Source of the DNA: Amyloporia xantha
Taxonomy: Eukaryota; Basidiomycota; Agaricomycetes; Polyporales; Adustoporiaceae
Assembly (NCBI GenBank): GCA_036971615.1
Contig: JAYKKR010000020.1
Location: forward strand, 62,001-126,000
Length of the DNA: 64,000 bases
Reading direction: 5' to 3'
Shown here in pieces: positions 13,290-50,150 of the stretch; within the stretch, counting starts at the first letter, position 1, and every line of letters begins with the position of its first letter. Both the position numbers and the translations under genes were made by a program. The notes under the pieces are model-generated. The model did not search any database, had not been told where the DNA came from, and saw only the letters and a list, made by a program, of their open reading frames with translations.

Positions 13290-13297
13290 GCCCACAG

Positions 13298-14356
13298 AGC
13301 CCATTCAGTCATTATAGCCTACTCTATAGGGAGAGATATGGGTGAAATTTTTATTACTTAGTAAGGAGAGCGGACGTCGGCCGACGCCATCGCTATAGCC
13401 TGCAGTGCAGGGTCGGCCGAGAGGGTATAATATAGCCTGTAGATACGGCGCGGCCGAGTGCGCCATATTTCCGTAGTATATTCTCGCCTTCAAGTAGTGT
13501 CGGCCCAGGGCTATAATATAGCCTTTAGATACGGCGCGGCCGACTGCGCCATATTTCTGTGGTATATTCTCGCCTGCAAGTAGTGTCGGCCGAGGGCTAT
13601 AATATAGCCTGTAGACACGGCGCGGCCGACTGCGCCATATTATCGTGGTATATTCTCGCCTTCAAGTAGTGTCGGCCGAGGGCTATAATATAGCCTGTAG
13701 ACACGGCGCGGCCGACTGCGCCATATTTCTGTGGTATATTCTCGCCTGCAAGTAGTGTCGGCCGAGGGCTATAATATAGCCTGTAGACACGGCGCGGCCG
13801 ACTGCGCCATATTATCGTGGTATATTCTCGCCTTGAAGTAGTGTCGGCCGAGGGCTATAATATAGCCTTTAGATACGGCGCGGCCGACTGCGCCATATTT
13901 CTGTGGTATATTCTCGCCTGCAAGTAGTGTCGGCCGAGGGCTATAATATAGCCTGTAGACACGGCGCGGCCGACTGCGCCATATTATCGTGGTATATTCT
14001 CGCCTTGAAGTAGTGTCGGCCGAGGGCTATAATATAGCCTTTAGATACGGCGCGGCCGACTGCGCCATATTTCTGTGGTATATTCTCGCCTTGAACTAGT
14101 GTCGGCCGAGGGCTATAATATAGCCTGTAGACACGGCGCGGCCGACTGCGCCATATTATCGTGGTATATTCTCGCCTGCAAGTAGTGTCGGCCGAGGGCT
14201 ATAATATAGCCTGTAGACACGGCGCGGCCGACTGCGCCATATTATCGTGGTATATTCTCGCCTGCAAGTAGTGTCGGCCGAGGGCTATAATATAGCCTGT
14301 AGACACGGCGCGGCCGACTGCGCCATATTATCGTGGTATATTCTCGCCTTGAAGTA
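13298..14356 (+). repeat. Left terminal repeat: inverted end plus ~86-bp satellite array
   Basis: After a ~120-bp unique end, about ten to eleven tandem copies of an ~86-bp unit run to 14,356. Each unit has the perfect palindrome GGCTATAATATAGCC, a CGGCGCGGCCGACTGCGCCAT block, TGGTATATTCTCGCC and GTAGTGTCGGCCGAG. Two sub-variants (TATTTCTGTGG and TATTATCGTGG) roughly alternate, suggesting amplification of dimers. Subterminal repeats of this kind usually bind transposase (inference). Confidence 0.9.
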
Positions 14357-14559
14357 GTATATTCCGCCCTATTGTTTCCTTTTCTACGCTTTAATTATAT
14401 GCATTTCAATAAATCTCATGCTGTATGTATAATAATAATAATGCCTCGCCATCCATTAGGCTTTGCAATCTGTCATTCATCACGACGTTTCGTGTGTGGT
14501 CAGGTCAGTGGTGTGACTACAATTCAAAGCGCAAGGACTGATTGGCCATTTCCGACGGC

Positions 14560-16600
14560 TCCATACACCCCACCCAAGACACGCGCAGAGACAGGGCCAT
14601 CTTACATGTGTCCTTCAAAGGATCCAGCTGTGTGGACCCTTTGTGGGACACAGATCCAATGGCCATCTCAAGCGGCAGCATCGCGCTATATTCTACCGCT
14701 ATACATATTTCATGTACGCTAAGGTCATTTGAACTGGATCTACCCACCTACCAGCATCTAATACATATTCTCGCCCAACCCAAGACACGCGCAGAGACTG
14801 GGCCATCTGATATGTGTCCTTCAAAGGATCCAGCTGTCTGGACCCTCTGCGGGACACAGATCCAATGGCCATCTCCAGCGGCAGCATGCGCTATGGAATC
14901 ATGGCGCCACCATGTCCAGACGCGCTATGCAACCATGCGCCACGTACCTTGCCTGCCACATTGTGAGGCGTATGGCACGCAGGTGTTATGATGTGCTGGC
15001 GCTGTTGGACGGGGCCATTTCATCCTTGCTACCCTGGGTCACCCAGAGGAATCGAATCACCGTCCACGTTTTGAGAGTACCCCTGATGCTGATGGACAAT
15101 TCAGCTGCATCCGGAGTACTCATGGCGCGGAAGGCAACTCGATTCCACTGGTGAACGTAGAGAGCAAGGAGTTAATGGGTTTATCCAACAGCGCCTTGCA
15201 TGAATGAGTCAGACTCCAGACAGGAAGACTTGACTTATGTTCCTCCGAGCCGCATACCTGTGGCTCAGAAGGACATAAGTCAAATGGGCCTTGTCCGGCG
15301 GCGACGGGCGCCAGCAGGTGTTATGATGTGCTGGCGCTGTTGGACTGGGCCATTTCATCCTTGCTGCCCTGGGTCAGCCAGAGGAATCGAATCGCCGTCC
15401 ACGTTTTGAGAGTACCCCTGATGCTGATGGACAATTCAGCTGCATCCGGAGTACTCATGGCGCTGAGGGCAACTCGATTCCACTGGTGAACGTAGAGAGC
15501 AAGGAGTTAATGGGTTAATCCAACAGCGCCTTGCATGAATGAGTCAGACTCCAGACAGGAAGACTTGACTTATGTTCCTCCGAGCCGCATACCTGTGGCT
15601 CAGAAGGACATAAGTCAAATGGGCCTTGTCCGGCGGCGACGGGCGCCATCTGATGGCGAAGTGCATGCGCGCTCATGCTCGCTGTTGGGAGATGGCGCTA
15701 TGGCTCGCCTGACAGGGCGCCTTCATCTATGGTCTTCAGAGCCGCATACCTGTGGCTCTGAGGGCCACAGACTGAAGTTGCGCTGTCCGGCGGCGACGGG
15801 CGCCATCTGATGGCGCCGTGCATGGCGCGCTTATGCTCACTGTTGGGAGATGGCGCTATGGCTCGCCAGACAGGGCGCCTTCATCTATGCTCTTCAGAGC
15901 CGCTTACCTGTGGCTCCGAAGGTCATAGAAGAAGGGGCCTCGTTCAGCGGCTATATGCGCCATCCGATGGCGCCGTGCATGGCGCGCTCATGCTCACTGT
16001 TGGGAGATGGCGCTATGGCTCGCCAGACAGGGCGCCTTCATCTATGCTCTTCAGAGCCGCATACCTGTGGCTCCGAAGGTCATAGATGAAGCCGCCTCGT
16101 TCAGCGGCAATATGCGCCATCCGATGGCGCCGTGCATGGCGCGCGCAGGCGAGGCACATGGTGCGCAGCCGGCGTGATGTGCTGGCGTTCTCGACCTGCA
16201 TGATTCCTCAATGCTACCCTGGATCAAAGCATCTGAATCGAATCGCCATCCAACCATTGTTGGATGGCCATCCGATTCAGCTGCTTGAATACCAAGGCCA
16301 TTGAAGAATTGGCTGGCGCAGAAGGACGTCATGCATTTATGCACTCACCGCGCAGACGAAACGGATACATACGCCACCTGAAAACACCCACCTTTGACAT
16401 GGCGCGATGTCCAAAGAGCATGATTTGCTGGCGTCCTCGAGCTCGGCCATTCGTCAATGCTACCCCGAAGTTAAGCGTCTGAATCGCATCGCCATCCACA
16501 TGATTGGATGGTAATGTGATTCAGCCGCTTAAATACAAGGTCCATTGAACAAATGGGAGACGCTGGGGACGTCATGCACTCGTGCTCATAAAGGCAGCGA
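14560..16600. repeat. Subterminal tandem repeats of several families
   Basis: Four families follow the left array. A ~100-bp unit with CAAAGGATCCAGCTGTNTGG occurs at 14,569-14,690 and 14,775-14,885. A ~340-bp unit (TGTTATGATGTGCTGGCGCT...GACGGGCGCCA) is duplicated at about 14,978-15,315 and 15,318-15,650. A ~160-bp unit (GGAGATGGCGCTATGGCTCG) is present about three times from 15,660 to 16,140. A ~270-bp unit is present at about 16,160 and 16,420. Units are rich in ATGGCG. Short open frames here are repeat artefacts. Confidence 0.8.
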
Positions 16601-16661
16601 CAAGAAATACATACAGACGACGGCGAGATCCACCTACGACATGGCGCGCAGAGACCCGGTC

Positions 16662-17416
16662 TCACTCCTCATCTGGCAACAGCACCTCTTTGAAGGCGTC
16701 CAACATCCTTGTGAGGTCGCCGGCATCGCGATGGCGACTCTCGGCGAAGCGGGTGACCAGGCGTTCGACGTCATCCAATTGATGGCTGACCGCTCTCATA
16801 TCGCGGTAGTTGACTTGATAGGTGTCTCCGCGACGCTATGCGGCAATCGATGCAATTTATGTGAATGAATGTGTTGAAAAGGTGGGAGCGGGGTGGCGAC
16901 TTACTCTGTCATGCAGTGGATACTTCCACCATGCTGGAAGGTGACTGGGAGGGTCGTCTGGCCAAGTCCACCACGCGGGCTCGGTTTCTGTGTGCAGCTT
17001 CTGTAGCTGCAAGGATGGCGGCGAGGCGAGCGGCGTGAACGGCTGTATCTCGAGGACGTGGATCCGTGGGACGGCCCCAAAGACGGTGGCGTCGCTGATC
17101 TTGCGGACGACGTCGGGGAGCTCGACGTCGGTGACGCCGACGAGGGCGAGGCGGCCAAGGCAGTCGCGAAGGGCTTCCTGCTGAGCGTCAGAGCAGACAC
17201 GTTGGGGAAGGCGAAGCTTACCATTTCCATGCGGAGGCCAATCTCCCACCGCGCCAAGGTGATGTCGAAGCCAGCCACCTTGTCTCTACCGGCGGCGACA
17301 GACATGATGGTCGCTAGCGCCTGCTCGCAGCGCCAGGCATAGTATGAGATCAGTCGGCGGTTGATAGCGATGAGGCTGGAGAGGGACTGTTCGCGATTCT
17401 TCAAGGCGAGAGCCAT
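16662..17416 (-). CDS. Small unknown protein of the KDZ element
   Basis: Start ATG at 17416 (MALALKNREQSLSSLIAINR), with three likely exons. Exon 1 ends at GLRMEM with a GTAAGC donor. Exon 2 reads EALRDCLGRLALVGVTDVEL, then PDVVRKISDATVFGAVPRIH. Exon 3 reads YRDMRAVSHQLDDVERLVTR and ends FKEVLLPDEE before a stop at 16662. The predicted product is about 200 residues, soluble and probably helical, with no signal peptide. No family recognised. It is divergent to the transposase gene 276 bp away, so the two may share a promoter region. Confidence 0.55.
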
Positions 17417-17691
17417 TGCGCCGTGGGGTGAATGGGTTGGTAGGCCAAGGCGAAATGCAAGGCGAATTTGAGGAGTCGATGGTGGATCGGGTGATCGCCT
17501 CGAGGGAAGGTCATGGCGAAGATCCGTCGGAGATAAGCATCGGCCAAGTATCTGAAGGTGATCGCGTGGATATGATCCGTTGTTGATAAGGGATCAGGAG
17601 GCAGGGGCGTGAGAGATCGCCATTCAGTATGAAAAGGAAGCTGTCATGGATCACAATAAGCCAATTGTCATCTGTCCGCAGTGATACGGCC

Positions 17692-20600
17692 ATGGCCCGC
17701 ACGAAGAAGCAACATGTCAGTGGCGATGCGGTGTTCGTGCGTCGCGAAGAACGGCGAACTGCAAGAGGCGCCGTCACATACGTTCCCAAGGAAGCACCGC
17801 TACCGCGTGCGCATGTGCCGACAAGCGCATCAAGATCGCCGTCGAAATCCCCCTCTAAAGCCGCGTCTCATGACGCATATTCCGAACCCGTGCAGGAGCA
17901 TGTGGTGTTTGACGATGTGATGCCGATGAAGAGTCTGCACAAGGTGAGTACCGTCGCCTTATTTGGGTCGCTCAATGTCAACGCCGAAGGCGGGGCAGTC
18001 GCAGAACGACTTTATGCGCGAATGGCTTCCACTTCGCGATGTGTATCTAAGCCACATCATCGAGCTAGAAGCTCCACCAGGTGAGAGACGATGCAGCAAA
18101 TGCGCTGATGCGCATGGCGATTGGCGCTGCTTGGAATGCTTTGGGCGCCCCGTGTATTGCGAGGACTGCCTGCAGTTGACGCATCGCCGCATGCCGCTGC
18201 ATCGGGTGGAGAAGTGGGCGGATGGGTTCTTCGAACCGGCGTGGCTTCGGGAGGTTGGGGTGCGGATGCATCTCGGGCATGATGGCGAACCATGTGTGGA
18301 TGCGGAGTCCCCGATCACGCCGCTGGATGGGGATGCTGATAGCGATGGCGAAGACGACGACGTGAGTGACGCCGGGGACAATGAAGAGGATGAAGAGCCA
18401 ATCAAAGCGGACTCGACGGCGCCGCGAAGTCACTACGCATTTGACACTTTGACCATTGTAGATGTTACGGGGATGCATAGCCTGGACGTTGTGTGGTGTC
18501 GGTGCGATAACAGGCTCACTCGAGACCTGCAACTATTGGACATGGGCCTCTATCCTGGGAGCACCAAGCGGCCACGCACTGCGTTCACATTTCGGGTGTT
18601 GGATGATTTTTTGCTTACCAACAAGGAGTGCAAAACCTCGGGGATGAATTACTACAGCAAGCTTCGACGTGTCACAAACTCTGCGTTCCCGCATTCAGTG
18701 CAGGTAAGCCGCTATGTGCATATGAAGCTGTTTTCGCCGTTGAGAAGGGGCTAGAACCGTTACAGAGAGCTTCTGCGGGTGTCCCGCCAATGGCGAAACC
18801 TCAAATACCGCAAATGGCATGGATATGGTCATGGCGCCTCCAACGCGATACCAGCTGGTGGCCTCGCTTTGGGGTGCCCGGCATGTCCCAAGCCTGGCGT
18901 GAATCTCGCTTCCGGATGGCGTGATGACCCCGTACAGTGAGCCATGTAAGACGTTTTTGGGCGGCATGTGTAACGCGATAGCAGATGGAAGTACATGAGG
19001 AGCATCGTAATGGACGGCAACTTTAGCGCGGAGCATCTCAAGATGCGTCGCCCAGAGGACGACGTCATTCTCAGCGATGGCGACGCTTTCATGGTGGGCG
19101 ACGACACCTACAAGAAGCATCTCGCTGTCGCCATCGAGCATAAAGAGGTCCGCGATCGACTCCTAGTGGATGAACCGTTGGACGCTCATAGCCTATGTAG
19201 AAATCCTTCTGTCACGATCATCGCGCCGTCAACCAGGCGAATGCAGATCGCCATAACCTTGAAGCCACGGGGATTGGCGCCGCGGCCTGTGCGCGCCATG
19301 GGTTTTTCATGCCGCATGCGGTGGTTGATTTCAGAAAGGCGAGAGGTAAGTGGTTTGCTATTTCCTTTGTTCACTTACACCCGCCATCAGACAGATGAAC
19401 ATGGATTACGCGCTGAGCGAGGTGCTCGCCACCATGGCGGGTATCCAGGTGCTGCTGGTGATGTACGACATCATGTGTCAATACGGCATCAATCTCATGA
19501 AGCGGTTTGGGGAGAGTGAGTATTTGCACATGCCGGCGAACGTGGAGATACGGCGCGGAATAGGCCTGTTTCATGTCCACGGCCATCAAGACACATGCTT
19601 TCCTCGCTACTCACCCAACTTCATTCCCGGTGCTGGTCAGATTGATGGCGAAGTGATTGAAACCCTTTGGGCGCCGTTGAATCTCATTTCGGGTAGCACA
19701 CGCGGCATGACCACAGCACATAGAAAGGAAGTCATTGACGATCACATGAATGATTCCAATTGGAAGAAGTTGACCGGGATGGGTGGGCCAACCTTGACAT
19801 TGGTGGAGAGGTTGATTGACTGTGGTTTCAACAGCGAACACCCTTGTTAGGAAATGGCGAAAGGCCAAAGCCGGCACCATGGAGAGCGGGGACGTGTTGG
19901 AGTTCATTGAGAGATCGAGCACGGAGGAGCAGCTAGGAGAGTGGCGAGCCGCTGAGGGCGAGGCGCTCGCCATGCGTGACGCTAAAATCAGCGCGATGGA
20001 TGTCTTTGACGTGCAGATGAGAAAGGGTGAGAGTGCACACTAGAGGGTACGGCCATGATTAATGATGTGGCGCAGCACCCACCCGGATGCAGATCCAACT
20101 TCAACTAACGCAAACGGAAACATCGCAACATCGCCATCAGGGCGTAGCTGCATGGATAGCCACGGGCATGAAGATTCAGGAATTGCAGTAGGTAGCGTCA
20201 TTGAACATCGGGTGCCAAGCTCACAACAGGTCTTAGGTTGGTCATTAGCCAACTGAAACGGAAGATGGGCCGGCATCCGCTGGTGGCGGACCGCCTTGCG
20301 CTGGAGGAGCGCCGTCAGCGCCTTCAGAAGCGTATAGTGACATTCGAGTCCAAAGCCGCTTCGTACATTCCACTTGTGGCCGAGCCCGATGGGGATGGCG
20401 CCTCAGAGGCTTATGACGGGTCTGAATGGGATGCACTGGAGGAAGATGTCAATCCTCTTGATGAGATTTACACCGGTGAGATCGATTCTGGAATCCAGCC
20501 TGAGAGCGCCATCATTTCGCTTCCATCGCAGCTTGGCTACGATGTTGTCGTGGCCAGCGGTTTAGAGGACATCGCTTCGGAGGAGTTGAGTTTGCGCATT

Positions 20601-21254
20601 GGGCAGGCCAATGACGCCCTTCATCAGATTCGCCTCGCCATTGGTTACAAGTCAGTGCTGTTTCGTACGGCGGTTCGTCATGCAAAGAGCCAGCGCCAAA
20701 AGCTCCGGTCCTGGGACGAGGTCATCTCCACGCAGAGGGCGGTGCTAGAGAACGTGCGCATTTACAGTCAAAGCCGCCACGCCATCCTCGCTCTGAATCC
20801 GACTGACGCCATCAAAGCGCGCTTCCGTGCCATTCAACATGATGACCTCAAGGCGATCACCGCGCTGCTCGACAACTCCATCCGAGGAACACGGCAGGAC
20901 AAGTTGTCCTGGATATGGACCGTAGACATCGAGGGCGATTCAACGCAGTCCAACTGGTTGACGGAGTGTGAGTGCGCTTGTGGTCCGTCCAATGCCCGCA
21001 ATGCTGACTGCAGCGCGGCAGTGCATCGCGTCAACTGGTTCCGTGCAAAATCACGTAAGGATAGGTGGGCGGAGGAGTTTGTCATGGTCACGGCAGAGAT
21101 GGCGTGGACGCAGGCGAGCTTCCATAACAAGGCGAACCTATGGCGCTCCCGCCTCTATGGGCCTCCAGGTCATGTATGCTATGCGCGCCGTCAGGTCTCG
21201 CTGTGGACGCGCATGGCGGAGCATGCCGCTTCTCGCTTTAATACATGTGTGTGA
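17692..21254 (+). CDS. KDZ transposase with CxC2 zinc region
   Basis: The enzyme that would cut and paste the element. It starts MARTKKQHVSGDAVFVRREE at 17692. The first exon ends 17,943. The next carries the CxC2 cysteine cluster (RCSKCADAHGDWRCLECFG, VYCEDCLQLTHRRMPLHRVE; about 18,089-18,300) and VTGMHSLDVVWCRC. Further exons have ALGCPACPKPGVNL and the RNase H-like core: first acidic residue in IVMDGNFSAEHL (about 19,004), second in VMYDIMCQYG (about 19,460), and Glu in IDGEVIETLW (about 19,650). The C-terminal exon has QRQKLRSWDEVIST and ends ARRQVSLWTRMAEHAASRFN before the stop at 21,254. With introns at about 17,944, 18,704, 18,937, 19,148, 19,351, 19,783, 20,026, 20,165 and 20,970, every apparent stop is spliced out except for an uncertain junction near 19,783. 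It may be functional. Confidence 0.85.
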
Positions 21255-21327
21255 TGGTTCGCCATTCACGACCCTACTAGATACACAAACATAGACTTGA
21301 CACAAATACAGATCTGTGTATGCAACC

Positions 21328-22585
21328 TTAAGTCCACTCCATCCAGTGCGGTGCCTTGACATTCATCGCGGCATGCACTGAGTCCCTCATAAAATAAGCG
21401 TAGCATATGCGCTCTCCATCGCATCTCTGAACGCCATGGCGCAGAAGCTTTCCGCAAAGCGCAACTACGCTACCCGCCTTGTAGTCTATAGCGATATTTG
21501 GACCATCCAGCTGCATTTCCAATGCGCCGTAGCTCCCTACCGTGGTGAGAAGGTCGAACCACTGCTTGCGAGTTTTTGTCGCGGTGTAGCGGCGTCTCGC
21601 GATTGCTGATGACCTGAACGCCATTGAAGATCGAAGACCAAGCGCTTACTATTGCGGGATACTCCACTTCGCCAAGAAGCGACTCCATGCATGTATGTCC
21701 CGCAGCATACAGGTCGGGATGCATGATGGACATCATGCCGGATAGGATGGCGGCTGATTCACGGATGGCGGTCAACCATCGCCATCCACTCTGGCCATCT
21801 TTATCGCGTAAGCTCGCCGAAGGCAGCATTGGGTCCAATGGGCCCTGGATGTATGCGCCGTCATTCGCCAGTCATCAGAGTTAAGGGATCGTCAGCGTAC
21901 CGTGTGACCCAGCGCGTGCCATCCTGGAGACAGATTGACAGTCCCCGGAGGTGTGGTGCAGGTTGATCGATCGCGGAAATATGCTTCATGGTTTCGCCAA
22001 CTGACCCCCGGGGCTTTACGCATCAGTTGTGTTGATAGGTGGGCCGTCGCCAATTGTATCTCCCTCTGCCGACACAGCGTAGTGAGCACGGTGCATGGCG
22101 GAAGATGAATGAGCCCACCTGGCGATTCACATGAAGGACGCCCGGAAGCACCCATGCTAGGATGCGCGAGTGCTGGTCGAGGAGCACGCAGGGTTCATCT
22201 AGAACCACGGTGGTGTCTGGGAGGAGAGGCGGCCATTTAGTCTTGAGCTGCGCCTCCAGATTCACGTTCTGTCCGGTGTTGCCCACGCCTATAGCATCAG
22301 AATACCGGTCAATGTCCCAGGATAAGCGCACTACTTTCCGGTCAGCGCAGCATGAGTAGATGCCCACAGCATCCAAGAGTACACACCAGGTTTGATATAT
22401 GCCTTTGCGAGCTGGTGCGCGATCTGGCTGCATTCGACGACGATATCGGCGCGGATATGTGTGGGAGGCTGTGGGTTTCTCGGTTGTCCGGCTGCATTCC
22501 GAAGCTTGTGTAGCCAAAACTGAAACATATCGCGCATGCAAGCTGCCAATGTGTCGCTGAGCTCCAAGCCGCTGCCCGCTATCAT
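21328..22585 (-). CDS. TET/JBP-type 2-oxoglutarate/Fe(II) dioxygenase
   Basis: A DNA-modifying dioxygenase of the TET/JBP family, which oxidises 5-methylcytosine in characterised fungal members. Read from 22,585: MIAGSGLELSDTLAACMRDM, then VRLSWDIDRYSDAIGVGN and ILAWVLPGVLHVNRQ, then NLSPGWHALGH, then AILSGMMSIMHPDLYAAGHT and WSSIFNGVQVISNRETPLHR. The iron ligands would be His and Asp of LHRD (about 21,572-21,590) and the distal His of LRHGV (about 21,440). The 2-oxoglutarate-binding strand is ERICYAYFMRD. The frame ends MEWT-stop at 21,328. Between HRDKNS and QWFDLLTTVG the reading frame changes by one or two bases, so this copy is either inactivated or carries a sequence error. It is convergent with the transposase, 74 bp apart. 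Confidence 0.8.
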
Positions 22586-23033
22586 GGCTTACAGACGAGA
22601 TGGATGGAGATACACGCCCCATCTCGCATTATTGCTCAATCTGCCATCTACTGACCATGCTGCAACAGCATGTCCATTAGCTTTGCACACTTGTTTGGTC
22701 GATCACATCGTTGAGCAAGCGCCGGCAAGATCAGGCCCAGCCGATCGGCAAGGCGTGATCCGGTGATCGAGGCGCGTCATTGGCATGTGGACCGCGATTC
22801 TCGACCACGGCGCCATTACGCCGGGGCCTCGGCCTGTGAGATGCCGCGCTCCGCCGGAGGGATGCCGGTCGGGTCTGCCCCGACATGGACGCTTGCAGTG
22901 TAAGAGAGATCAGCGGGGTTAGAACAGGACGAAAGTATCACCGGAGGTCAGACACGTCTGGGCAAATGTTCAGTTGGGAGTGCCCAAGTGTCTGTCATCC
23001 TGAGAGCATCTCGGTCTGCTTGTTGTCCTCGCC

Positions 23034-26000
23034 ATGGGAATAGCTATCCTGCAGGCATATCTAGACAAGATCCCAGAGCAAATAGAGCGATGGCGCAACA
23101 CCAAAGGCACTGCGAGGGCACCCATTGTCGATGAGGCTGTCAATATCCTCATGGAACAATTCGCAGAGCTGACAGATAAAAATGGCCTGAAAAAGGTCAA
23201 ACCAACAGTTCATGGCATTGTCATCTTCGTCATTCACACATTTCTATAGTCCCTGGGGACCTATTTCAGCAACCACTACCGAATCGTAGAACCCCAGGTG
23301 CCCATCCCTGGAACGAAAAAACGGTCAGCGAGGGATATGTATCAAGAGGAGCACAAAACAGAGCTGCTAAGGGTGGCCAACGAAAGGACGGGAGGACGAG
23401 GTCTGGCCCACCAGGAGATAGGCGCATACACCAAGGTAGTGAGCGAGTATTGGGGCAAACTGGATGAGGACGCAAAGGCGGACTACCGGATGAAGGCGGA
23501 TGCGTTCAACAATGACGCCAAAGAGGTCAAGGCTGGATCTTCGGCGTGAGTGGGAGCGCGACCTTTGTGCTAAGTTAACGGCAGCTGATGGCGACGCAGG
23601 AAAGCGGACAAGGAGCTCATTCCGTTTCTGAGGAAATACGCTCGAGAGGCATACCGACGCCATGGTGTCAGGATCTTTACGTTGAGTAGCTACAAATCTC
23701 CTGATGGGAGAGTCGTCATTCAGGAGTGAGCAGGCAATTTGTATCGCCTCTCACCGCTCTGACCGCTTTTCACAGACACGACTTCAACGATGAGATGGAG
23801 AATGGAAAAGCCTTTTCCAAGGTGGACGATTGGCACGCAGATACGATGGTCAAATGGGCCAAGTACAGCACAGAGGCATTTGATAGCAATCGCGAGGCGA
23901 GCGTTGACAACGGAGAGGGAACGTCTCGCGGCACACGGCGAGAGCTGCTGGTCGACGATGGCGGTCTCCCGTTGATACCGCCAATGGATGGCGAGGATGC
24001 GCCATCCCTGCCTGTGATGAAATCCATGATCAGAGACTTTCTGTCTACTCACTACCGTAAGTCTTGATCCACACGGCGCTCACAAAGACGCTGATGGCGC
24101 CATAGAACGGGCTGCAGGAAGCGCCAAAGAGAAGTGCCCTTGGCGCGCGCTCAAAGTGCGTGGGGCTGAATTTATAGAAGCAGGAATGGTGCCAGACGGC
24201 TTCCAATTCGACGATCCGTCGCATATGGTCAGGAAGGACATCATCGCGGTCCTGCATCATTGGAGAGCGGCGCAAGAGGCAAACAAGGGGCAGTGCGCGT
24301 TCCGCTTCAAGGCATACCTGAAGAGCAGGGGGACGAGGATTCGGAGCTAATCCCTGCTGTGTATGAGGCGGCGAGAGCACCCAAAGGCGCTAAAGGCAAG
24401 GCGGGCCCCAAAAAGAAGAAAAAGAAGGCGGTGAAAAGCGGCAAGGGCAAAGGCGTGCAACGTCTCAGCACCGATGACGATAGCGCCGTGGACGACGACA
24501 CCGATCACGAGACTTTCAATCTGGACATCGACGTCGGGTCAACTTCCGACGAAGATGATGACAGCGAAGATGCAAAAGGCGCCGCACCCAATTGGGCGCT
24601 GCTCTCACGTAGACGGCGTCAGCAATGGCTGGAGGCGGCATCGCCATCGCCAGAATTTCGCGTGATCGTGGACGCGCTGCCTCGCATGATGGTAGTGACT
24701 TCATTTTTCTCCGTAAACTAAGGCTTACCTTGTGAGTGATAGAGTGGGCTGAAGACGACAAAGCGGGCGCCGGAAGGCGCCGACTGGGCGACCTGGCACA
24801 ACCCGCATCGACACTTGTCCTATATGGTTCATCGCCACGCCAATGGGCTCGATCCAGTGCTGAAGTGGCTCGACTCGAAGCCTTATTTGAACAAGTCCGG
24901 CAGGCTGACAGGGGACGTCGGCATGATTGAACAAGTGCTCCTCGTGATCGCCATGATAAGCCGCGATCTGACGGCGGCACAGTTCGCCTTCCAGGATCCC
25001 GACGCCCGCCTTTGGACATTCCACGCCATGTCAGCGAGAGCGCCATACCCTTCGCCGTGATTGCCCAGAGGCTCGACCCGCATGTATCATCGTTGTGCGC
25101 GCTGGTGAAGCAGGCACAATCTGTGCAAGGCGACGCGCCATCCATGGAAGGTAGCTCTGTCACCCGCAGTAGCACTGCGGCCGCGGCGCAGCCAACACCT
25201 TTGGAGGCCCCACCACCGGCGTTGAAATATGGTCCACCACCGCCCCACGTTCCCAGACAGGGGAAGCCATCACCTCGCCCTCCCATGATGCCCACTGGGA
25301 ATCTCAACAAGGGTCCACCTCCCCCACTCCGCCCGAAGCCTCGCCATTTGCAAACCCTGCGGGCGGAACAGGAGCGTCGTACGCCGGACCCGCCAGCGGC
25401 ATTGGCGAGGAAGCCGCGCCAATCCTCACATCCCCTAAGATAAGGCGATCGCGAGACGCGCATAATGGCCAAGTAGCTCAGCAATCCAGCTCGCCGTTGC
25501 CGGAACCTCTGCGAGGCACGCAAAAACATTCGCTTCCGTTTCCAGTCACAGGAAAACCGCCTCCAGCAAGGCCGCTAATGACCACGGGAAGATCGGTCTT
25601 TCCATCCATACCTAAGCGCGCCTTGGGTATGAGACCGCGTCCACAACTAGAAGAGAGACCGCCATCAATTGACGGCGCACCGCCTTCCTCGCCAATGGCG
25701 CCAGGGCGTGCACCGCCATCCTCCCCCATCGCGCTCAATGACGCAACTGTCCGCCGCGGGAGTATGGATTTCTCCTCCTCTCCACCTATTGCGATGAATC
25801 AGCTCTCACCCGTTCGAGATATGAGGGGCCTACAGGTTCATTTCTCCGACCGTGAAAATCATGACAGTGAAGACGAGAGCGACGGCGAGGCCAATCGTGG
25901 TCCTTCTCCCTCACTTCCTGTGCCAAAGCGCAAGACACGCCAAACAGCTCGGCAGGCAAAGGAGATCAATATTCAGGCACTGCCAACGGCAGGCGGGTCC

Positions 26001-26311
26001 TCGATCACGGGTGCTCTCAACGACATGAAGGTCGCCACCCACACTCGTCAGAAGACAAAAGCTAAGGAGGAAAAGTTGAAAAAGCGAAGTCACCGCGTGA
26101 GCGAAGAGGAGGAAGAGGAGGAGGAAGCAGAGAAACCACCCCAACCTCGTGAAAAGCGAAAAAGGCGGGTCGCTCAAAGCGGGCTCTGGCGGAGACTTAT
26201 AGCGATGGCGAGGAAGAGCAGGGCGAGCCTGCCCCCGCCATTCGTAGGTCATCGCGCAAGACAGGTAGGGGAGCTCAGCCCCGACCCACTAAAGCGCGTG
26301 GTCGCCGTTAG
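23034..26311 (+). CDS. HMG-like, Pro-rich, basic-tailed protein of the KDZ element
   Basis: Starts MGIAILQAYLDKIPEQIERW at 23034. Spliced pieces give LGTYFSNHYRIVEPQVPIPG, then RSARDMYQEEHKTELLRVAN and YTKVVSEYWGKLDEDAKADY. The last has the spacing of an HMG-box-like helix pair (xxxYWxxLxxxxKxxYxxxA), so DNA binding is plausible. Later exons contain PWRALKVRGAEFIEAGMVPD, an acidic/Lys-rich region (24,400-24,560), HRHANGLDPVLKWLD, long proline-rich stretches (25,150-25,750) and a basic tail, RRSSRKTGRGAQPRPTKARG, with the stop at 26,311. A frame change near 24,340 could be a missed intron, a gene boundary or a mutation, so this may be two genes. The HMG assignment is by pattern only. Confidence 0.5.
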
Positions 26312-26534
26312 AATACTATTTCCCATGTACACTACCTCGCATTTAAATTCAATGGCGATGATTGAACTCAGCGCTGCGAAGGATGGCGATGGCGTGCCGC
26401 TCCCTGTGCAAGCCCCCGTGGCGCACTGTGATGCCGAGGGTGTTGCCGTCATCGCAGTCTCAATGTTACTGGTCGCTGGAGAGTGTACACAATGCATTCG
26501 TTTGAAAGTACAGCAAAGTTACAAAAACAATTAT

Positions 26535-29306
26535 CTAAGGCGAAGCGGGAGGCATCTCGGCGTCGTCGACAGTGACGGGTGATGTTGCGGCATCAGGCTC
26601 TCGCTCCTCCGCGGCCACGCTCGCCATCTCGTCGTCGTCGATCTCCAAGGAGAAACGCCTGATTGAAGGTGTGGAGCCACCGGCGGGCGTCGACAGAGCT
26701 TCATTCGTGAAGTCCGATTGATCTCCTACAGAGCCACGCTCTGAGGTAGACCACGAAATGGGAGTGGCTCCCTCATGAGCGCTGTCCATGATCGCCCTCG
26801 CCTTGCGCCGTCGTTGCGCGTCCTGTTCCGCCTTCTGCACGAGCTCCACCGACAGATGCGCCTTGTCCAATAGCGTCTCGGCCTCCGCGTCGTTGTGGCG
26901 AGCGACGTCACGGCGCACTGACTCAAACTGCGCGATGAGCCCCTGTAATCTCGCCTCACCTGCCTCAATGCCCGCCATCGCCTGCCGCGTCCTCTCGCTC
27001 TCATCGCGCACGTTGTCCATCAACGTGTCCACGCGCACCTCCATGTTCGCGACTTGCGCACCAAGGCGATCCATCGCCATGTTCTCCTTGGCTGCACGCA
27101 GATCGTCCTGCAGAACCGTGACCATCTCCTCGAGCGCGGCGATGCGAGCGACGGAGTCCTCAGAGCGCACATCTTGCAGAGTCTGCTCCGCGCCTTCAAC
27201 TCTTGCCAGTAGGCCGCCAATCTGCCCCTCGGCGTTATCAATGCGCTCGGTCATGTTGACCTGCTGCCTGTTGATGGCGAGCAGTGACTGCTGGAAGTTG
27301 TCGACCATGCTACCGAAGCGGTCTTGCCACGCGGTCATTATGTTGATGTTCTTCTCGAGTCGGTGGCCTTGCTCAGTGAGGTACGCCGTAAATGGCTGGA
27401 AATGAGACAACTCCTGGTCCTGCGCGTAGCGCCCTTCATCCATGGCGGTGGGGTCCTTGGAGAATCCTACGTAGTGGTGGTACTCGCCATGGTGGTCTGG
27501 CAGCCACACATTGACTTGGTCAGTTGATCGCGCCGTCCAGAAAGAGTGAAGCCGACTTACATTTTACCTCGCCAGGCCTGAGCCCAAGCCGCGCCGAGCG
27601 ATCGCTCGAGCCGCTGGCCTCTGCCTCCTGGAGAGGACGGTCCGCGCGCTCCTTGCCCTTCCCTTTAGCCACCGCTGGAGGTGGCTTCCCAACCCACGCC
27701 TTCATCGAGCTGAGTGATGTCTTCGGGAGCGGCGCTATTGGGCGGGACGCAGCGGCATCGCCAGTCGCTGATGCCACCCGCAGCTGGCTGTCCACCTCCC
27801 GCGTCGTCCTTCGCATCGACATCCGCGCTACCCGCCTTGCCATCGTCCTTTTCCCCTTCTTCTTCATCCACATCCATCTCATCGCTCGCCTTCGATTCCG
27901 AACCCTTCGCCGCAGCTTTGCCCCGCTTGCCTCTATCCTCCACAAACTCCTTCCTCTCCTCATCCCAGCGCGGTGGAGGAGGCTTGATGCCATCGGCGAG
28001 GCTGTTCTTGATGACGTCCTGATACTTGCTTGCCAGGACTGCACCGTAGGGGCCCCTGATCGGATTGCCGCTCAGGTTGTGTGGCACGATCGAGCAGCCT
28101 ATCTTGCGCTTCAGGCAGCGCATGCAACGCCGACCGTCCACGACAGCAAGCCTGCATTCAGCTTTGGCCTTGGCGCAATTTCCGCAAGGCATCGCCTGAA
28201 GGCATGTCAGTCAGCATCGCTTGCCGCGCATCTGGTAAACGTACTCACCGAGACAAATGTCTCCGTCTCCTCCATCTCCTCACTCTCGCCTTGAGCGTCC
28301 TCGTCCATGTCGTCATCTTCGGGCGCCGGCGACGCCTTCGCCTTTCCCTTTCCCTTCCCCGTCGACGATCCCGCCTTCGCCTTCGACCGCGTCTGCCTGG
28401 CGTCATCATCCTTTCCCGCAGGAGACTTGCGCGATGAAGCCTTCTCGTTCGTCTTCGACGTCGATGGCCCCGCCTTCGTCTTCATCCGCGGCTCAGACTG
28501 GGCGGCCGTCGTTTCCTCTCCTGCCGCTTTCGCAGTGGTGGTCTTGACTCCGCCCTTGGATGCCGCCTTAGTTCCCGGCCGTCGTTGCAGCCCCTCCGCG
28601 CCGTGGCTTCTTCGTTACTGGTGCAGCGATGACGACGCCCTCATCGCCGTCCGTCGCTGGCGTCGTTCCCTTTGACCTTCTAGAGGCCGCCCCTGCGTCG
28701 TCATCCGCCCCCTTCTTCGCCACTTTCCCTCGACTCCCGCCTGCCTCTGCCTCCTCCGTCACCCCACTTGGCCCCGCAACTCCATCCCCACCCAGCGCAA
28801 CCTCGCTCGTACGCTTGCGCAACAGCGCTGCTGAGCCGTTAGTGATGACGTGGCGTATGGTTTCGCAGTGCACTCACCTTTCCACCAAAGGTTGCCCCCG
28901 AGGTCTTCGGCAATGTAATCGCCATGCCACACGTATTTGGAGAGGCCATGGCTTTGAATGGCGGGGTCGTCAACCTTGATGGCAGTCAAGTCCACTCCGC
29001 GCTTCTTGTGCGACGCCACCGTGTATTGCGCCATGGCGCTGACCAACAGCGGCGGCACTTGTAATCCCTCGCGGTGTTTTCCCAGCGCCTTGATCTTCGC
29101 GAAGATCGATTGCTAGAGGCGCCATTATACAGACTCAGCGCCACAGTGCTCACCCTGATTGTGTTACAATCACTTACCACTTCCTCCCAGAAGTTGCTCT
29201 CAAACACCTTGTACTTCGCGTCGCGCTTCCCGGGCAGAAACTTCAGCGCCTCTTCCAGGCGCACTGCGGCGATGATGATGTCGCTGTTGATGCTGGAGGC
29301 GGACAT
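26535..29306 (-). CDS. Zn2Cys6-like, coiled-coil protein of the KDZ element
   Basis: Start ATG at 29306 (MSASSINSDIIIAAVRLEEA). Exon 2 contains LSKYVWHGDYIAEDLGGNLW. A long Lys/Asp/Ser-rich low-complexity region follows (28,830-28,270). A cysteine cluster then spaced C-x2-C-x6-C-x9-C-x2-C-x6-C (CGNCAKAKAECRLAVVDGRR, then CMRCLKRKIGC; about 28,190-28,090) fits a fungal Zn2Cys6 DNA-binding domain. Then come an acidic stretch, and a last exon (27,500-26,535) with a long heptad-like coiled coil (MTERIDNAEGQIGGLLARVE...) and an acidic C-terminus ending MPPASP. The frame near 27,800 needs an intron or carries a shift. Likely nuclear and oligomeric; possible roles are regulating the element or DNA targeting (inference). 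Confidence 0.55.
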
Positions 29307-29339
29307 GGTGGTAGAAGCAAAGCGAGATGGGATTTGACA

Positions 29340-29376
29340 GCTGTGGTGATGGCGGTGGTGGTGGTGGTGGTGGTAG
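29340..29376 (+). repeat. (GGT)n simple repeat
   Basis: About ten tandem GGT/GTG triplets between the divergent starts of the two right-hand KDZ genes. Confidence 0.85.
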
Positions 29377-29549
29377 AAGAAGAGACGAAGTCAGACCCAC
29401 GCGGTGCATCGCGTTGGTTGATGGCGGGCGCCTGGCGGAAAGATCCGCGCCCGTTCGATCGGCACCGCACGTGTTGCGCTCATGGGTATATTAGATGCCT
29501 CTAGACGAACTTGGCACGTTTCCGCATTCCTTCCGCCTTGCTTTCAACC

Positions 29550-31320
29550 ATGTCGGAACACGCAGACGAGCTAGGTGAGCACATCATGTAGATATCCTCA
29601 CGCCAACCTGCGCTCACTCCCCTCAGCCCGCCAAATACTAGACTTCGACTCCTCGCCCATCAGAGGTGATGCCCCTCGCCCTACCCTGGACTTCGAGTCC
29701 TCGCCCATCAGAGGGGATGCCCCTCGCCCTACCCTGGACTTCGAGTCCTCGCCCATCAGAGGGGATGTCCCTCGCCCAACTCTGGACTTCGACTCCTCGC
29801 CCATCAGAGGGGATGTTCCTCGCCCAATTCTGGATGTGGTGTCTTCGCCTTCGCCTTCGCCTTCACGCACTCTGCCACCAGCGCGTACGCTTGGCGATTT
29901 GTCCGCATCGCCATCGCCATCCCCGCCGCCGCTAAACTTTCGCTTTGCTATGTCGCCAACGCCTGACCTTGCCAACGTTCAGGGGGGATCTGCACAACGT
30001 AGCACTCCTCTCGATATGCCGCCACCGCCGTCCGCGCCTACTTCAAAAAGACGTGTGGACCTCGTCTTCCCCCAATTAACGTCCCCTCAACTACGTAGGC
30101 CCACAATGCAGTCGGCATCTTCCCAAGATATAGATCTCTTCCGTCCATCGCTCAACATTTCGCCCTCACCGCCGAATACCTCGCTATCAAGACAACCGTT
30201 GGATTTCACCTCGCCATCGCGAATGCAGACCTCACCTTTTAGATCCGCCCTGGACCTTTCGCCATCGCAGGTAAACACCCCGTTGCACCGTCCACAGCTT
30301 GACCTGGAGGCATCTCCAGAGCGAGTGCACAGCGCCCAGCCTACCTTCGAGTCGCCTGTCCCTCATCGTGCACACCTCGACTTGTCGCCATCGCTGTCTC
30401 CAGTCCTCCAGCTCCGCGATCAGCTGGATCTCCCGGCCACTCCATCCCCAGGTATGTCCACACTCATGTTTTTAAACCTATTTCCTACTGACACTCCATT
30501 CCTCTACTATTGAAGATAGAGGCGCGCCTATGGATGGCGTCGTGGATGGCGGCGTGGACGGCGGCGTGGACGGCGGGATGGACGGCGGGATGGACGGCGC
30601 ACTTGATCACGACCTTGCGCATAGCCAAGATGGCGATGTTGACATGGCGGATGAGCGCCTCATCCAACTCAATCGCCAGGTATTTTGCCTCGCTTTCTCT
30701 TGCCTTTGTGTTTGAATACTCATAGACAGTACCTTGACATTATAAATGAGGTGTTGGACGAGCACAACATACCCCGCGGTCCTCTGGTAAGTGAAAGCCC
30801 TCCATCGCCTTCATCGTCATGCTGATACCACTCCAGGACTTGGAGGCACACCGTCAGCGGCTCAGAGACCGTGGCCAGGATCTCCCTCGTACCTTCGCCC
30901 TCGCTCCCATTCTGGATCACGACGAGGACATCATTGACTCAAGTAAGTACAGCGAAATTCACCCTTTCACCATACTTAAATATGCAAAGAATTGGAGAAT
31001 CCATACTTTGATGATGGCAGAGGCCACTCCCCCAATAGCGCCATGAACGCCATCGAGATTAAATTCGGTATGACACTGCGCTCGCAATTTGCCATTCGCT
31101 AAAGAAAACAATAGAAGGTTTTCCTCGCGGAAGCGAAGAAAACTTGATGTTCCTTCAAGCGCAATCCCTGAGCGAGAGGTTACGACGTATAGAAGAGGAC
31201 ATCGACGTCGCCAACGCAATCTTGAAGCTGCACCAGCCCATCAAATCCTTGCTCACAGCCAAGCCACCGCAGGACGGGACCACTGGGGTTGAAGCCATGA
31301 TGTGGAATGGCGAGATATAA
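29550..31320 (+). CDS. Ser/Pro-rich repeat protein of the KDZ element, intact
   Basis: Seven exons splice cleanly: 29550-29574, 29627-30451, 30516-30679, 30730-30786, 30837-30942, 30990-31067 and 31115-31320, giving about 486 residues. It starts MSEHADEL. Exon 2 holds four to five copies of a 16-residue repeat (LDFESSPIRGDAPRPT) and then many degenerate LD(L/F)xxSP motifs. Exon 3 has a VDGG/MDGG run. Exons 4-7 form a predicted helical C-terminus: YLDIINEVLDEHNIPRGPL, LEAHRQRLRDRGQDLPRTFA, and SLSERLRRIEEDIDVANAIL. Repeated S-P sites suggest heavy phosphorylation (inference). No family recognised. The absence of frameshifts indicates recent function. Confidence 0.7.
29640..29840 (+). repeat. 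48-bp in-frame tandem repeat
   Basis: Four to five near-identical 48-bp units (TCGCCCATCAGAGGGGATG core) encode the 16-residue SSPIRGD repeat. High identity indicates recent expansion. Confidence 0.85.
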
Positions 31321-31514
31321 TTCGTTATACAGTATATACTCCGATGTCGTTGGCATCAAGGACAAAATGTAGTCACAGAATATTGAGTTGCTTTACCAAT
31401 ATACGCGAACACATGACCTGGCGGCGCCGATACCGCGCCATGAAAATACCATCCCAGTGGGCATACCAGGCCCATAAGCGCGGCGCGCCATGATGCGCGA
31501 TATGAATACCACTG

Positions 31515-32341
31515 CATCCACCATCGGCCGACGCTACTTGAAGGCGATAATATACCACGGAAATATGGCGCACTCGGCCGCGCCGTGTCTAAAGGCTATA
31601 TTATAGCCCTCGGCCGACGCTACTGGAAGGCGATAATATACCACGGAAATATGGCGCACTCGGCCGCGCCATGTCTACAGGCTATATTATACCCTCTCGG
31701 CCGACACTACTTGAAGGCGATAATATACCACGGAAATATGGCGCACTCGGCCGCGCCGTGTCTAAAGGCTATATTATAGCCCTCGGCCGACGCTACTGGA
31801 AGGCGATAATATACCACGGAAATATGGCGCACTCGGCCGCGCCATGTCTACAGGCTATATTATACACTCTCGGCCGACACTACTTGAAGGCGATAATATA
31901 CCACGGAAATATGGCGCACTCGGCCGCGCCGTGTCTAAAGGCTATATTATACCCTCTCGGCCGACACTACTTGCAGGCGAGAATATACCACAGAAATATG
32001 GCGCACTCGGCCGCGCCGTGTCTAAAGGCTATATTATACCCTCTCGGCCGACACTACTTGCAGGCGAGAATATACCACAGAAATATGGCGCACTCGGCCG
32101 CGCCGTATCTACAGGCTATATTATACCCTCTCGGCCGACGCTACTTGAAGGCGAGAATATACTACGGAAATATGGCGCACTCGGCCGCGCCGTATCTACA
32201 GGCTATATTATACCCTCTCGGCCGACCCTGCACTGCAGGCTATAGCGATGGCGTCGGCCGACGTCCGCTCTCCTTACTAAGTAATAAAAATTTCACCCAT
32301 ATCTCTCCCTATAGAGTAGGCTATAGTGACTGTATGGTGTG
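31515..32341 (-). repeat. Right terminal repeat: inverted satellite array plus end
   Basis: About eight copies of the ~86-bp satellite in reverse orientation to the left array, then the inverted unique end reaching TATAGTGACTGTATGGTGTG. Several long open frames here are produced by the repeat itself because the unit length keeps frame; they are not genes. Confidence 0.9.
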
Positions 32342-32349
32342 GCCCACAG

Positions 32350-46702: not shown

Positions 46703-48170
46703 CAGCTGCTTATGTACCGTTGATGCACCAAATAGCGGATAAGCCCCCAGACCCGTTATGCACCAGGCAGGCTATCTGCCTGTACCCTGGTGCATCATTT
46801 CCAGGGGCTTCGCCGGACCCTCCGGGGCCTCCTAGCTTTCGCCGTAGGCCCCCCCGGCATCACGGCTAGTTACTATATTGGGTAGGTATGTATTCCGTGA
46901 GCCCTGGGTCATTCAGTATATGGCAGACTATGTATTTTAGGGTATTTTTGGCTCAAATAAAACATAAAAATTCACAAAAAGATATGTTGTATTCCAGTAA
47001 CTACAGGGTACCTACTGCATACACTATATCAAAACTAGAATATTTACGTAGGTTCAGATGAGCGGGCCAAACAGGCAGGCAGCGGGAGCACCCGCGCAAG
47101 CGAGCAGGGTGTTAGTGGGGTGAACGAGTGGGGGCGGGTCAAGCATCGGGCGGGCGAGGCGAGTGGGGATGGGGCGAGCATCGAGTGGGCGAGCAGGCAG
47201 GGACAGGTCAAGTGTCGGGGTACAGGCGGTGCGAGCAGCAAGCGTCGAGCATTGAGTATCGAGCGGGGAGCGGTGTCGAGCGGGAGAGCGTCGAGCCGGG
47301 GGCGTCGAGTGGGGAGCGGGAGCGTCAAGTAAGGAGCTGCGTCGAGCGGGGAGCAGGGAGCATCGGTCGGCGTCGAGCGTCGAGTGGGAGCGGGAGCGGG
47401 AGCGGGAGTGTCGACTGGGGAGCCGCATCGCGCGTCGAACCGAGGGCGTCGAGTGGGAGCGTCGAGTGGGGAGCAGCGTCGAGTGGGGAGCGTCGAGTGA
47501 GGAGTGGGAAGCCGAGAGCGGGGAGCGTCGAGCGAGATCCTCGAGCGGGCATCGAGTATCGAGCGGGGAGCGTCGAGTGTCGAGCGAGAGCGGTGTTGAG
47601 CGGGGAGCGTCGAGTGAGGAGCCAGGAGCCTCGAGTGAGAGCCTCGAGCGGCGAGCGGTGAGCCTCGAGCGAGAGCGGCGTCAAGCGGGGAGTGGCGTCA
47701 AGCGGGGAGCAGGGAGCGCCGAGTGGGGAGCGGCGTCGAGGGGGGGCGGCGTCGAGCGGGGAGATTTGAGGAGCGGGGAGACTTGAGCGGGGAGCGGGGA
47801 GTCGAGAGCGTCGAGCCAGGCGCGAGGAGCTGAGCAGCCTCGACGCGCAGAACTGCGTCGAGGGCGGAGGTGTGGTGGTTGTCGGTCGGGGTCGCTTATA
47901 GCGCCGTCAGACTGGGCAGCAAACAGTTAGTCAGCGGATGCAAAACACAAAACAAGAAGAGACTTACCTTAAGACGCTGCTCGCAGGGAGCAGCGGGACG
48001 TCGTCACCGTCGAGGACGACGTCGAGCAGACGACCAACGCTGACGCGTCGCAGTTGGCGCACAGCGCGGAAACAGCCGGGATACCCGATTTGGGTATGTG
48101 GCTGAAGTCGTGCTCGTGCTGCTCAGCGAGTACGACGGTTCTGAGCAGGTATCGTCGCTATGTAACAAAT
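46703..48170 (+). repeat. Left arm of the fold-back element
   Basis: Outer inverted end, an AT-rich patch (46,920-47,045), a GC-rich minisatellite of 14-18-bp units based on GTCGAGCGGGGAGC, then a unique inner segment to about 48,170 with a TTACCTTAAGACGCTGCTCG stretch mirrored near 48,820. Confidence 0.75.
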
Positions 48171-48569
48171 TGAAAGTAATTAGAATGTATGGAATAGTAT
48201 ATAAATCAGTTGTTTAGATAATCCTCAACTTCCTTAGAGAGATATAAACGAAACATACATATTTGGGTTCCAGAAGAGTGAAAAATCGGCATATTTTGGT
48301 AAATCTCATGAGCAATAGCCTATGCAGAGGTAGAATAAAAGTTACCCTGTAATATATATCATATAAAGATGTACTCCGTCCACATTCTGTGCGGATAGGT
48401 AAGCATTTGCGGCGGCGCTGTTCGAAACGGCGGTGTAGGTCGGCTTGCGAACATTTCGACCATTCAGTCGCGCCTGGCTGAGCGCGCCACCTGATTGGCT
48501 GCGCAAGGCCTCGGCCGACTCGGGGCTCTTCCTCACCTAGCAGATCTTGTCTTGTACGTCTCATTTTTG

Positions 48570-50150
48570 GTAAATATATTATAGTACTACTCTACTGCTC
48601 TGATGCGAATTCTTGAGGAGATTGAGGCACTATTGAGTGCCTCAGCTACATTAAGACGGATGTAAGACCGATAAGACGCCTTCCATATTGGGCAGGCCGG
48701 CATTTCCCGACTGCCAATCGTGACGCGTCGCCCTTGGTGTCTGCTCGACGACCACGACCACGACAACAACGGCGTCGTCGTCGTCCCGCTGCTGCCTGCG
48801 AGCAGCGTCATAATGTAAGTGTTTTCTCCTTTTGTGTTCTTCATCCGCTGACCAGCCGTTTGTTACCCAGGCTGACGGCGCTGTAAGCGACCCGGACCGA
48901 CACCATACCTCCGCCCTCGACGCGCAGAGCTGCGTCGAGGCTGCTCAGCTCCTCGGGCCCGGCCTCCCACTACCTGGTCCCCCTCGACGCTCCCGCTCCC
49001 CCTCGACGCCGCTCGACGCTGCTCCCCCTCGCCGCTCCCCACCCGCCGCTCGACGCTCCTCACTGGACGCTCCCCCTCGACGCTCCCGCTCCCCCCTCGA
49101 CGCAGCTCGACACTCCGGCTCGACGCCGCTCCCCACCCGCCGCTCGACGCTCTCCCTCAATGCTCCCCCTCAACGCTCCCCGCTCCCCGCTCCTCGCTCG
49201 ACATTCGACGGTCCGGCTCAATGCCGCTCCCCGCTCCCCACTCCCGCTCCCCGCTCGCTCGATGCTCGATGCTCGACGCTCCGGCTCGACGCCGCTCCCC
49301 ACCCGCCGCTCGACGCTCCCCCTCAACGCTCCCCTCAACGCTCCCCGCTCCTCGCTCGACATTCGACGGTCCGGCTCAATGCCGCTCCCCGCTCCCCACT
49401 CCCGCTCCCCGCTCGCTCGATGCTCGATGCTCGACGCTCCGGCTCGACGCCGCTCCCCACCCGCCGCTCGACACCCTCACTGGACGCTCCCCCTCAACGC
49501 TCCCCGCTCCCCGCTCCCCACTCCCCGCCCCTCGCTCGACGCTCCGGCTCGACGCCGTTCGCCACTTGCCGCTTCGCGCTCCCGGCTCCGCGCTCGCGCT
49601 CAAGGCGTGAGGCTCCCTCTCGACGATCGACGCTCCCCACTCGCCACTATGCACTTACCCCGCCCGTGTTCGCTCGCTACCCGTGTACGCTCGCCCCGCA
49701 TTCGCTCGCCACCCGTGCTCGCTTGTTTGCTCGCCACCCGTGCACGCTTCCTGCCCGTGCTCGCTCCCCCCTTCCCCCGCTCGGCCTGTCTGCTGAACGT
49801 AGCTACTGTAATAGCTTTTGTTATGATTGTACTCTGTAGCTAGTGAAACGAAAATAAAAATGATTTTCTTTGCTATTTTTGTACATTTTTGATGTCCAAA
49901 TGAGTGTGCCATCCAAAATATATATTCCACCATTAAATAAATGATCTAGGGCACTCAGAATACATACCTACCAGATATAGTAACTAGCCGTGATGCCGGG
50001 GGGGCCTACGGCGAAAGCTAGGAGGCCCCGGAGGGTCCGGCGAAGCCCCTGGAAATGATGCACCAGGGTACAGGCAGATAGCCTGCCTGGTGCATAACGG
50101 GTCTGGGGGCTTATCCGCTATTTGGTGCACCAGGTATACATAAGTTGGTG
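48570..50150 (-). repeat. Right arm of the fold-back element
   Basis: Reverse-complement counterpart of the left arm, with the minisatellite at about 48,950-49,780, an AT-rich patch and the outer end. Unit composition differs between the arms, so the minisatellites have diverged or expanded independently. Confidence 0.75.

Follow-up and report, generated by a model that had tools for sequence, protein, structure and literature searches.

We analysed a 64,000-nucleotide stretch of Amyloporia xantha DNA (the window; G000:C13:62001-126000), in which a 19,045-bp element carries six genes between long inverted ends. We consider it probable that this element is a KDZ-superfamily DNA transposon of the cut-and-paste type, young, mobile until recently or even now, and carrying its own anti-silencing kit. 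It moves as one unit of ~18–19 kb, and its full-length copies share six genes in the same order: a small gene (-), a KDZ transposase (+), a TET/JBP dioxygenase (-), an HMG-box-like gene (+), a Zn2Cys6/coiled-coil gene (-) and a SPIRGD-repeat gene (+). An earlier note on this DNA, made from the sequence alone, had described a complete-looking KDZ transposon of ~19 kb, which agrees with the length, matched ends and transposase reported here and needs correction only in the length of the target-site duplication.

The terminal inverted repeats are ~210 bp long, with 98% complementarity between the arms at 13301–13508 and 32130–32337. Both are backed by satellite units of 86/87 bp, in arrays of opposing orientation; near-identical ends and inverted satellites had also been noticed earlier. 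The octamer GCCCACAG flanks the window copy at 13290–13297 and 32342–32349, and the earlier note had taken it for an 8-bp duplication. Comparison with five other complete copies shows a repeat of 7 bases only, the eighth differing; the eighth base here is a G that invariably begins the element and precedes AGCCC in every copy displayed. We therefore place the bounds at 13297–32341, correct the duplication to 7 bp (GCCCACA) and reject an 8-bp, Zisupton-like duplication. Exact 7-bp duplications were present in 20 of 26 tested copies (6/6 complete copies and 14/20 further end pairs), all 20 with different sequences, while the remaining end pairs comprised one with a single mismatch, two reciprocally swapped and three unmatched. 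The further end pairs were matched by hand from end-probe matches, and 20 of 22 were examined, the two more than 35 kb apart being excluded. The neighbouring copies C34:2221207-2254757 and C34:2266159-2284312 have exchanged their 7-bp flanks, as recombination between copies would produce.

Genome searches (46.8 Mb, 60 contigs) scored the best candidates only, and all copy numbers are lower bounds. A search with the left end, suggested in the earlier note, used the first 200 bases from 13298 and recovered at least 40 places, the best 40 of 219 candidates all being 99–100% identical. Such a match at 40/40 scored places argues that the inverted-end element is not a product of chance. The transposase probe gave full-length matches at 99–100% in 40/40 scored (best 40 of 95 candidates), the right-end probe 39/40 at 97–100% with the other partial (best 40 of 57) and the Zn2Cys6 probe 38/40 at 97–100% with the other two partial (best 40 of 67). 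Core divergence among eight copies (six complete, two partly retrieved) was 0.17–0.68% of sites, and the six complete copies measured 18,160–19,045 bp, their left arrays having 4 to 14 satellite units and their right arrays 5 to 8. The element is young and present in many copies. The earlier note had also proposed looking for empty sites, and one was found at C34:2080570-2081256, where 687/687 bases are identical to the joined window flanks. This suggests an allele or a recent duplicate, that is, a second haplotype or a recent duplication in the assembly.

We tabulated the six genes around 144 KDZ hits (of 150 listed and 174 in all; six second halves were dropped), using 114/114 rows for TET, 77/116 for HMG, 100/148 for Zn2Cys6, 79/81 for the small gene and 64/149 for SPIRGD. 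Dropped rows were mostly second fragments of the same place, positions were entered by hand and distance windows reached up to 24 kb. All five other genes stood in the window order and orientation at 39/144 hits, with near-constant spacing in 31 of the 39, as read from the listing, and insertions or partners shared with a neighbour in the other eight. Seven of the 39 places form a diverged second family in the same genome, with protein identities to the window of 52–58% (small), 51–52% (HMG), 38–46% (Zn2Cys6) and 42–45% (SPIRGD). Ten further hits with KDZ, TET, HMG and Zn2Cys6 genes belong to a third, more distant group (HMG identity ~25–33%, some at weak E-values), and 37 hits had other partial gene sets. 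Together with the 20/26 exact duplications and the empty site, the 39 hits bear out the earlier inference of one co-mobile six-gene unit. Small and SPIRGD genes are separated by only ~2 kb at C16:505091-506782 and at C39:55322-57442, and none of the listed matches of the other four falls between them. On C39 the small gene also repeats at ~15.6-kb spacing between 91132 and 137956, perhaps as an array or as part of a derivative element.

Patterns of nucleotide change suggest purifying selection on the transposase, HMG and Zn2Cys6 genes and, less strongly, on TET and the small gene. Counts of nonsynonymous (N) and synonymous (S) changes were set against expectations that allow for the CpG-rich mutation spectrum; the copies are related, and p values carry no multiple-test correction. 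Across 13 copies, the transposase had 14N/27S against an expected 69% nonsynonymous (p=5.6e-6), HMG 7N/13S (p=0.0033), TET 5N/8S (p=0.034) and the small gene 5N/7S (p=0.053). This set leaves out an interrupted copy, removed after its excess of changes was noticed; with it included (14 copies), the counts were 42N/44S for the transposase (p=1.2e-4), 8/10 for TET (p=0.045), 7/13 for HMG (p=0.0038) and 5/8 for the small gene (p=0.028). In eight copies only, the transposase had 5/15 (p=2.6e-5), HMG 5/6 (p=0.09), TET 1/2 and 4/1 in two pieces and the small gene 3/2. Zn2Cys6, also in eight copies, had 21N/29S (p=9e-4), or 19/31 (p=1.5e-5) with other exon frames and spectrum. The older interrupted copy (C34:245019-253519) serves as a natural control: its private transposase changes (28N/17S) were not different from neutral (p=0.22), and 45 of its 72 private changes were CpG C>T. 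Its HMG gene lies ~14 kb further on, with a different KDZ hit between its TET and HMG genes.

Gene models came from a purpose-written, simple splice-aware gene finder and are approximate. The transposase matched the Pfam CxC2 domain at E 4e-27 (E 2.2e-26 in concatenated exons), and the concatenated exons matched the KDZ domain (PF18758) at E 1.6e-48 over profile positions 3–217 of 217. Residues D303, D420 and E481/E484 of the concatenated model, which we take to be the catalytic acids, are invariant in a 10-sequence alignment, in line with the multi-exon transposase and D-D-E acids noted earlier. A KDZ domain with a cysteine cluster, in an element mobile with target-site duplication, places the family in the KDZ superfamily. 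A search of public proteins gave 711 transposase relatives. The top scorers belong to Polyporales, those of Sparassis crispa (47% across 99% of the query) and Wolfiporia cocos (54% across 63%) among them. Sparassis crispa P0002 and P0029 and Ganoderma boninense P0032 are annotated as single chains of CxC2, KDZ and Tet_JBP, which points either to gene fusion or to adjacent models merged in annotation.

TET/JBP enzymes are of a kind able to remove DNA methylation. The TET protein matches the solved CcTET (E 5e-10) with the distal H and D337 kept, and HxD is kept in a separate piece (E 0.03 for that piece); with these residues the CcTET-like region is of the AG type. The catalytic exon, which joins both pieces, is open in frame in 10/14 copies. 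Across the element, C>T changes affected 75/1377 CpG cytosines versus 16/3388 other cytosines (odds ratio 12, the minor allele taken as derived), a pattern as expected if methylated CpG had been deaminated. Oxidised methylcytosine is reported to be enriched in inverted-repeat transposons of Laccaria and Coprinopsis (PMC8889193).

The other four cargo genes are all present as open frames, as the earlier note had it. Pfam gave no match for the small gene, whose relatives were found within the genome surveyed. For the HMG-box-like protein, HMG boxes made up most of the 50 listed Foldseek matches (of 67), none of them significant, to a structure model with a pLDDT (predicted local distance difference test) score of 66. 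The Zn2Cys6 protein has the cluster spacing CX2CX6CX9CX2CX6C, with no change at any of the six cysteines among three sequences, one per family, and a long coiled-coil stretch is predicted, where weak coiled-coil-type Pfam hits also fall. Outside this genome no Zn2Cys6 homologue reached E<=0.01 among 7,994 candidates, a search that low-complexity words may have swamped; residues 273–372 gave none at E<=1 among 117 candidates. Both are weak negatives, as the search needs shared exact 5-mers, although the database does cover fungal proteins, having given the 711 transposase relatives.

Table 1. Features of the six-gene transposon in window coordinates.
Feature	Position	Strand	Remarks
Complete transposon	13297..32341	+	19,045 bp, 5'-GAGCCC...GGTGTG-3'
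Target-site duplication GCCCACA (7 bp), left copy	13290..13296		one copy retained at empty site
Target-site duplication (7 bp), right copy	32342..32348		
Left terminal inverted repeat	13297..13508	+	outermost bases imperfect
Right terminal inverted repeat	32130..32341	-	
Left satellite array	13412..14358	+	86-bp units, ~11 copies, most with two CGGCCG palindromes
Right satellite array	31524..32226	-	~8 units, opposite orientation to left array
Subterminal tandem repeats	14979..16144	+	335-bp (x2) and 157-bp (x3.6)
Small minus-strand gene	16662..17416	-	~187 aa, four exons (model)
KDZ transposase	17455..21300	+	multi-exon; better-supported core exons 18005-21173; CxC2 and KDZ domains
TET/JBP dioxygenase, CcTET-like	21328..22585	-	catalytic exon 21328-21871; 5' part of model uncertain
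HMG-box-like gene	23034..25060	+	3' end of model uncertain
Zn2Cys6/coiled-coil gene	26535..29306	-	~750 aa, eight exons (model)
SPIRGD-repeat gene	29550..31320	+	long open frame 29575-30513 plus 3' exons

Several results weigh against a mobile element equipped to counter its own silencing. In the window copy, one of 4/14 with this defect, the catalytic exon of TET is out of frame; this copy is 2 bp shorter near 21570, within that exon. Many 1-bp indels distinguish the copies, probably in part assembly errors; such differences, whether errors or decay, leave any single copy only putatively autonomous. HMG Pfam scores were 17.0 bits (window exon), 12.7 (concatenated) and 18.5 (family-B exon) against a cut-off of 22.4, and the structure model, at pLDDT 66, is of low confidence, its best Foldseek match having E 0.32 and probability 0.95. 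Zn_clus scores fell short likewise (13.1 bits, and 13.5 bits in family B, versus a cut-off of 21). The p values for TET and the small gene lie close to the 5% line, and the SPIRGD gene gave no sign of selection in 11 copies (7/3 and 2/2, summed 9N/5S). Furthermore, at 58/144 KDZ hits all five cargo genes are missing from the neighbourhood: KDZ elements without this cargo exist, and KDZ transposases as such do not need it. Finally, the enrichment of CGGCCG described below could simply accompany the satellite, and that the Zn2Cys6 protein binds this motif is conjecture based on its protein class.

Some of these points fit the strongest alternative: a KDZ transposon of the usual TET-carrying sort, where nothing but the transposase and TET matters and the remaining genes are passengers acquired once. 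We regard this as unlikely, if clearly the best of the rivals. TET cargo is already published for KDZ elements (PMC12730594), the SPIRGD gene looks unselected and 58 hits do without all the cargo. A derivative missing most of the genes also keeps both ends: a 6.1-kb copy on C24, with ends 93–96% identical, lacks 14450–27365, which takes out the small gene, the transposase, TET, HMG and some of the Zn2Cys6 gene, contains an unrelated 1.5-kb stretch and matches at 6/7 duplication bases. A place on C39 shares its right end and flank. The earlier note had named copies with the same ends but without the genes as evidence against a six-gene system, and the C24 copy is one. DNA transposons commonly leave internal-deletion derivatives, however, and since the C24 copy reads as a non-autonomous derivative of this kind, we do not take it to overturn the six-gene unit. 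Against mere passengers, the nonsynonymous deficit in HMG and Zn2Cys6 is at least as significant as that in TET, and the order and orientation of all six genes are kept in the seven elements of a family at only 38–58% protein identity.

A second alternative is partial domestication of the transposon, its cargo working for the host or the host's chromosomes, in centromere or heterochromatin function for instance. Copies are strongly clustered at C12 2.37–2.55 Mb and C34 2.22–2.43 Mb, possibly centromeric or heterochromatic regions, but the very young copies on many contigs, the distinct target duplications and the one empty allele or paralogue are as for an active parasite, and we think domestication very improbable. 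That the unit is an artefact of assembly or nesting, with separate elements landed side by side, has next to no likelihood and is rejected: nested insertions do occur (one copy carries a 4.3-kb insert and several end pairs lie 20–34 kb apart), but the same order recurs at 39 KDZ hits and in the diverged family too, mostly at near-constant spacing, with 7-bp duplications outside.

Among described elements, the closest likeness to our transposon is to the TET+ Kyakuja of Agaricomycetes (Kojima 2025, PMC12730594), which have a KDZ transposase, a CcTET-related AG-type TET/JBP and 7-bp duplications. The same text (PMC12730594) gives Kyakuja as the only TET+ lineage reported there from Polyporales; the closest transposase relatives here point to that order too. 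Two Laccaria Kyakuja families are described there with 5'-CA..TG-3' ends and no inverted repeats (PMC12730594); compared by description, the element here differs in its GA..TG ends, ~210-bp inverted repeats and inverted satellites, and we therefore do not assign it to the Kyakuja clade. Zisupton, as cited in PMC12730594, has 8-bp duplications and inverted repeats; it is alike in its KDZ transposase and long inverted repeats and differs in duplication length, which is 7 bp here wherever an exact one was found (20 copies). The element combines Kyakuja-like 7-bp duplications, Zisupton-like long inverted repeats and a six-gene module, with signs of selection on several of its genes.

Iyer et al. 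2014 (PNAS) are said to have described KDZ elements with TET/JBP and a divergent HMG-type cargo gene, reportedly with no Zn2Cys6/coiled-coil, small minus-strand or SPIRGD gene. The main text of PMC12730594 has 0 occurrences of HMG and, in the parts covered, no Zn2Cys6 cargo gene. No description of the six-gene module or of Zn2Cys6 cargo was found among the titles, abstract openings and passages searched, most subscription journals lying outside that search. The earlier note had rightly stated that basidiomycete KDZ elements can carry TET/JBP genes, which is published (PMC12730594). Its impression that the system as a whole is undescribed does not extend to the TET cargo or, given the HMG gene reportedly described by Iyer et al. 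2014, to the HMG cargo, and stands at most for the Zn2Cys6, small and SPIRGD genes and the fixed six-gene order.

The element's ends are rich in one short palindrome. CGGCCG occurs 53 times in the window versus 18.6 expected, with 40/53 within the terminal repeats and arrays, and the element interiors of six copies hold 2–3 each. Members of the Zn2Cys6 class commonly recognise CGG triplets, and this, with the density of CGGCCG at the ends, led us to propose a protein that marks those ends. By homology, the KDZ transposase would cut and join the inverted ends and the TET/JBP protein would oxidise 5-methylcytosine on the element; the anatomy of the element suggests that the HMG-box-like protein might bend its long ends together for transposition. 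The Zn2Cys6/coiled-coil protein, with its GAL4-like layout, may bind the CGGCCG palindromes of the terminal satellite arrays, and such putative binding would guide TET and the transposase to the ends of the very element that encodes them. We offer the resulting picture tentatively, as one possibility that we hold at well below even odds: a self-targeting demethylation transposon whose Zn2Cys6 protein reads satellite CGGCCG and recruits TET, HMG and transposase to its own ends, a fungal counterpart of VANC.

VANC of the Arabidopsis element VANDAL21 (Hosaka 2017, PMC5735166) binds short motifs, often set in tandem repeats within its own family, and leads to methylation being lost; the repeat number varies between copies. 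The analogy is one of working, an element-encoded protein acting on its own family's tandem motifs. VANDAL21 and VANC, a plant element and its protein, are unrelated to those here; binding is reported for VANC and putative in our case, and unlike VANC our element has a TET oxygenase plus a separate putative DNA-binding protein. The AG-type TET of mushroom transposons has been speculated to act without a target (Kojima 2025, PMC12730594).

Elsewhere in the window, a second element of ~3.4 kb at 46703–50150 has 230-nt inverted arms (91%), CA..TG ends and a 7-bp direct repeat, CGTCCAT, and also bears inverted GC-rich satellites; it looks like a non-autonomous Kyakuja-like element. The region 54001–60000 is AT-richer (GC 0.40–0.43) than the rest.

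If the proposed self-targeting is true, an oxygenase and a separate DNA-binding guide would have stayed together in one fixed module of genes over a long span of KDZ evolution. Given the fixed putative DNA-binding partner, the dense end repeats and the signs of selection on both, it would become possible to test directly whether a fungal transposon carries out targeted demethylation, and a young, abundant family with an empty site is a good subject for assays of methylation, expression and transposition.

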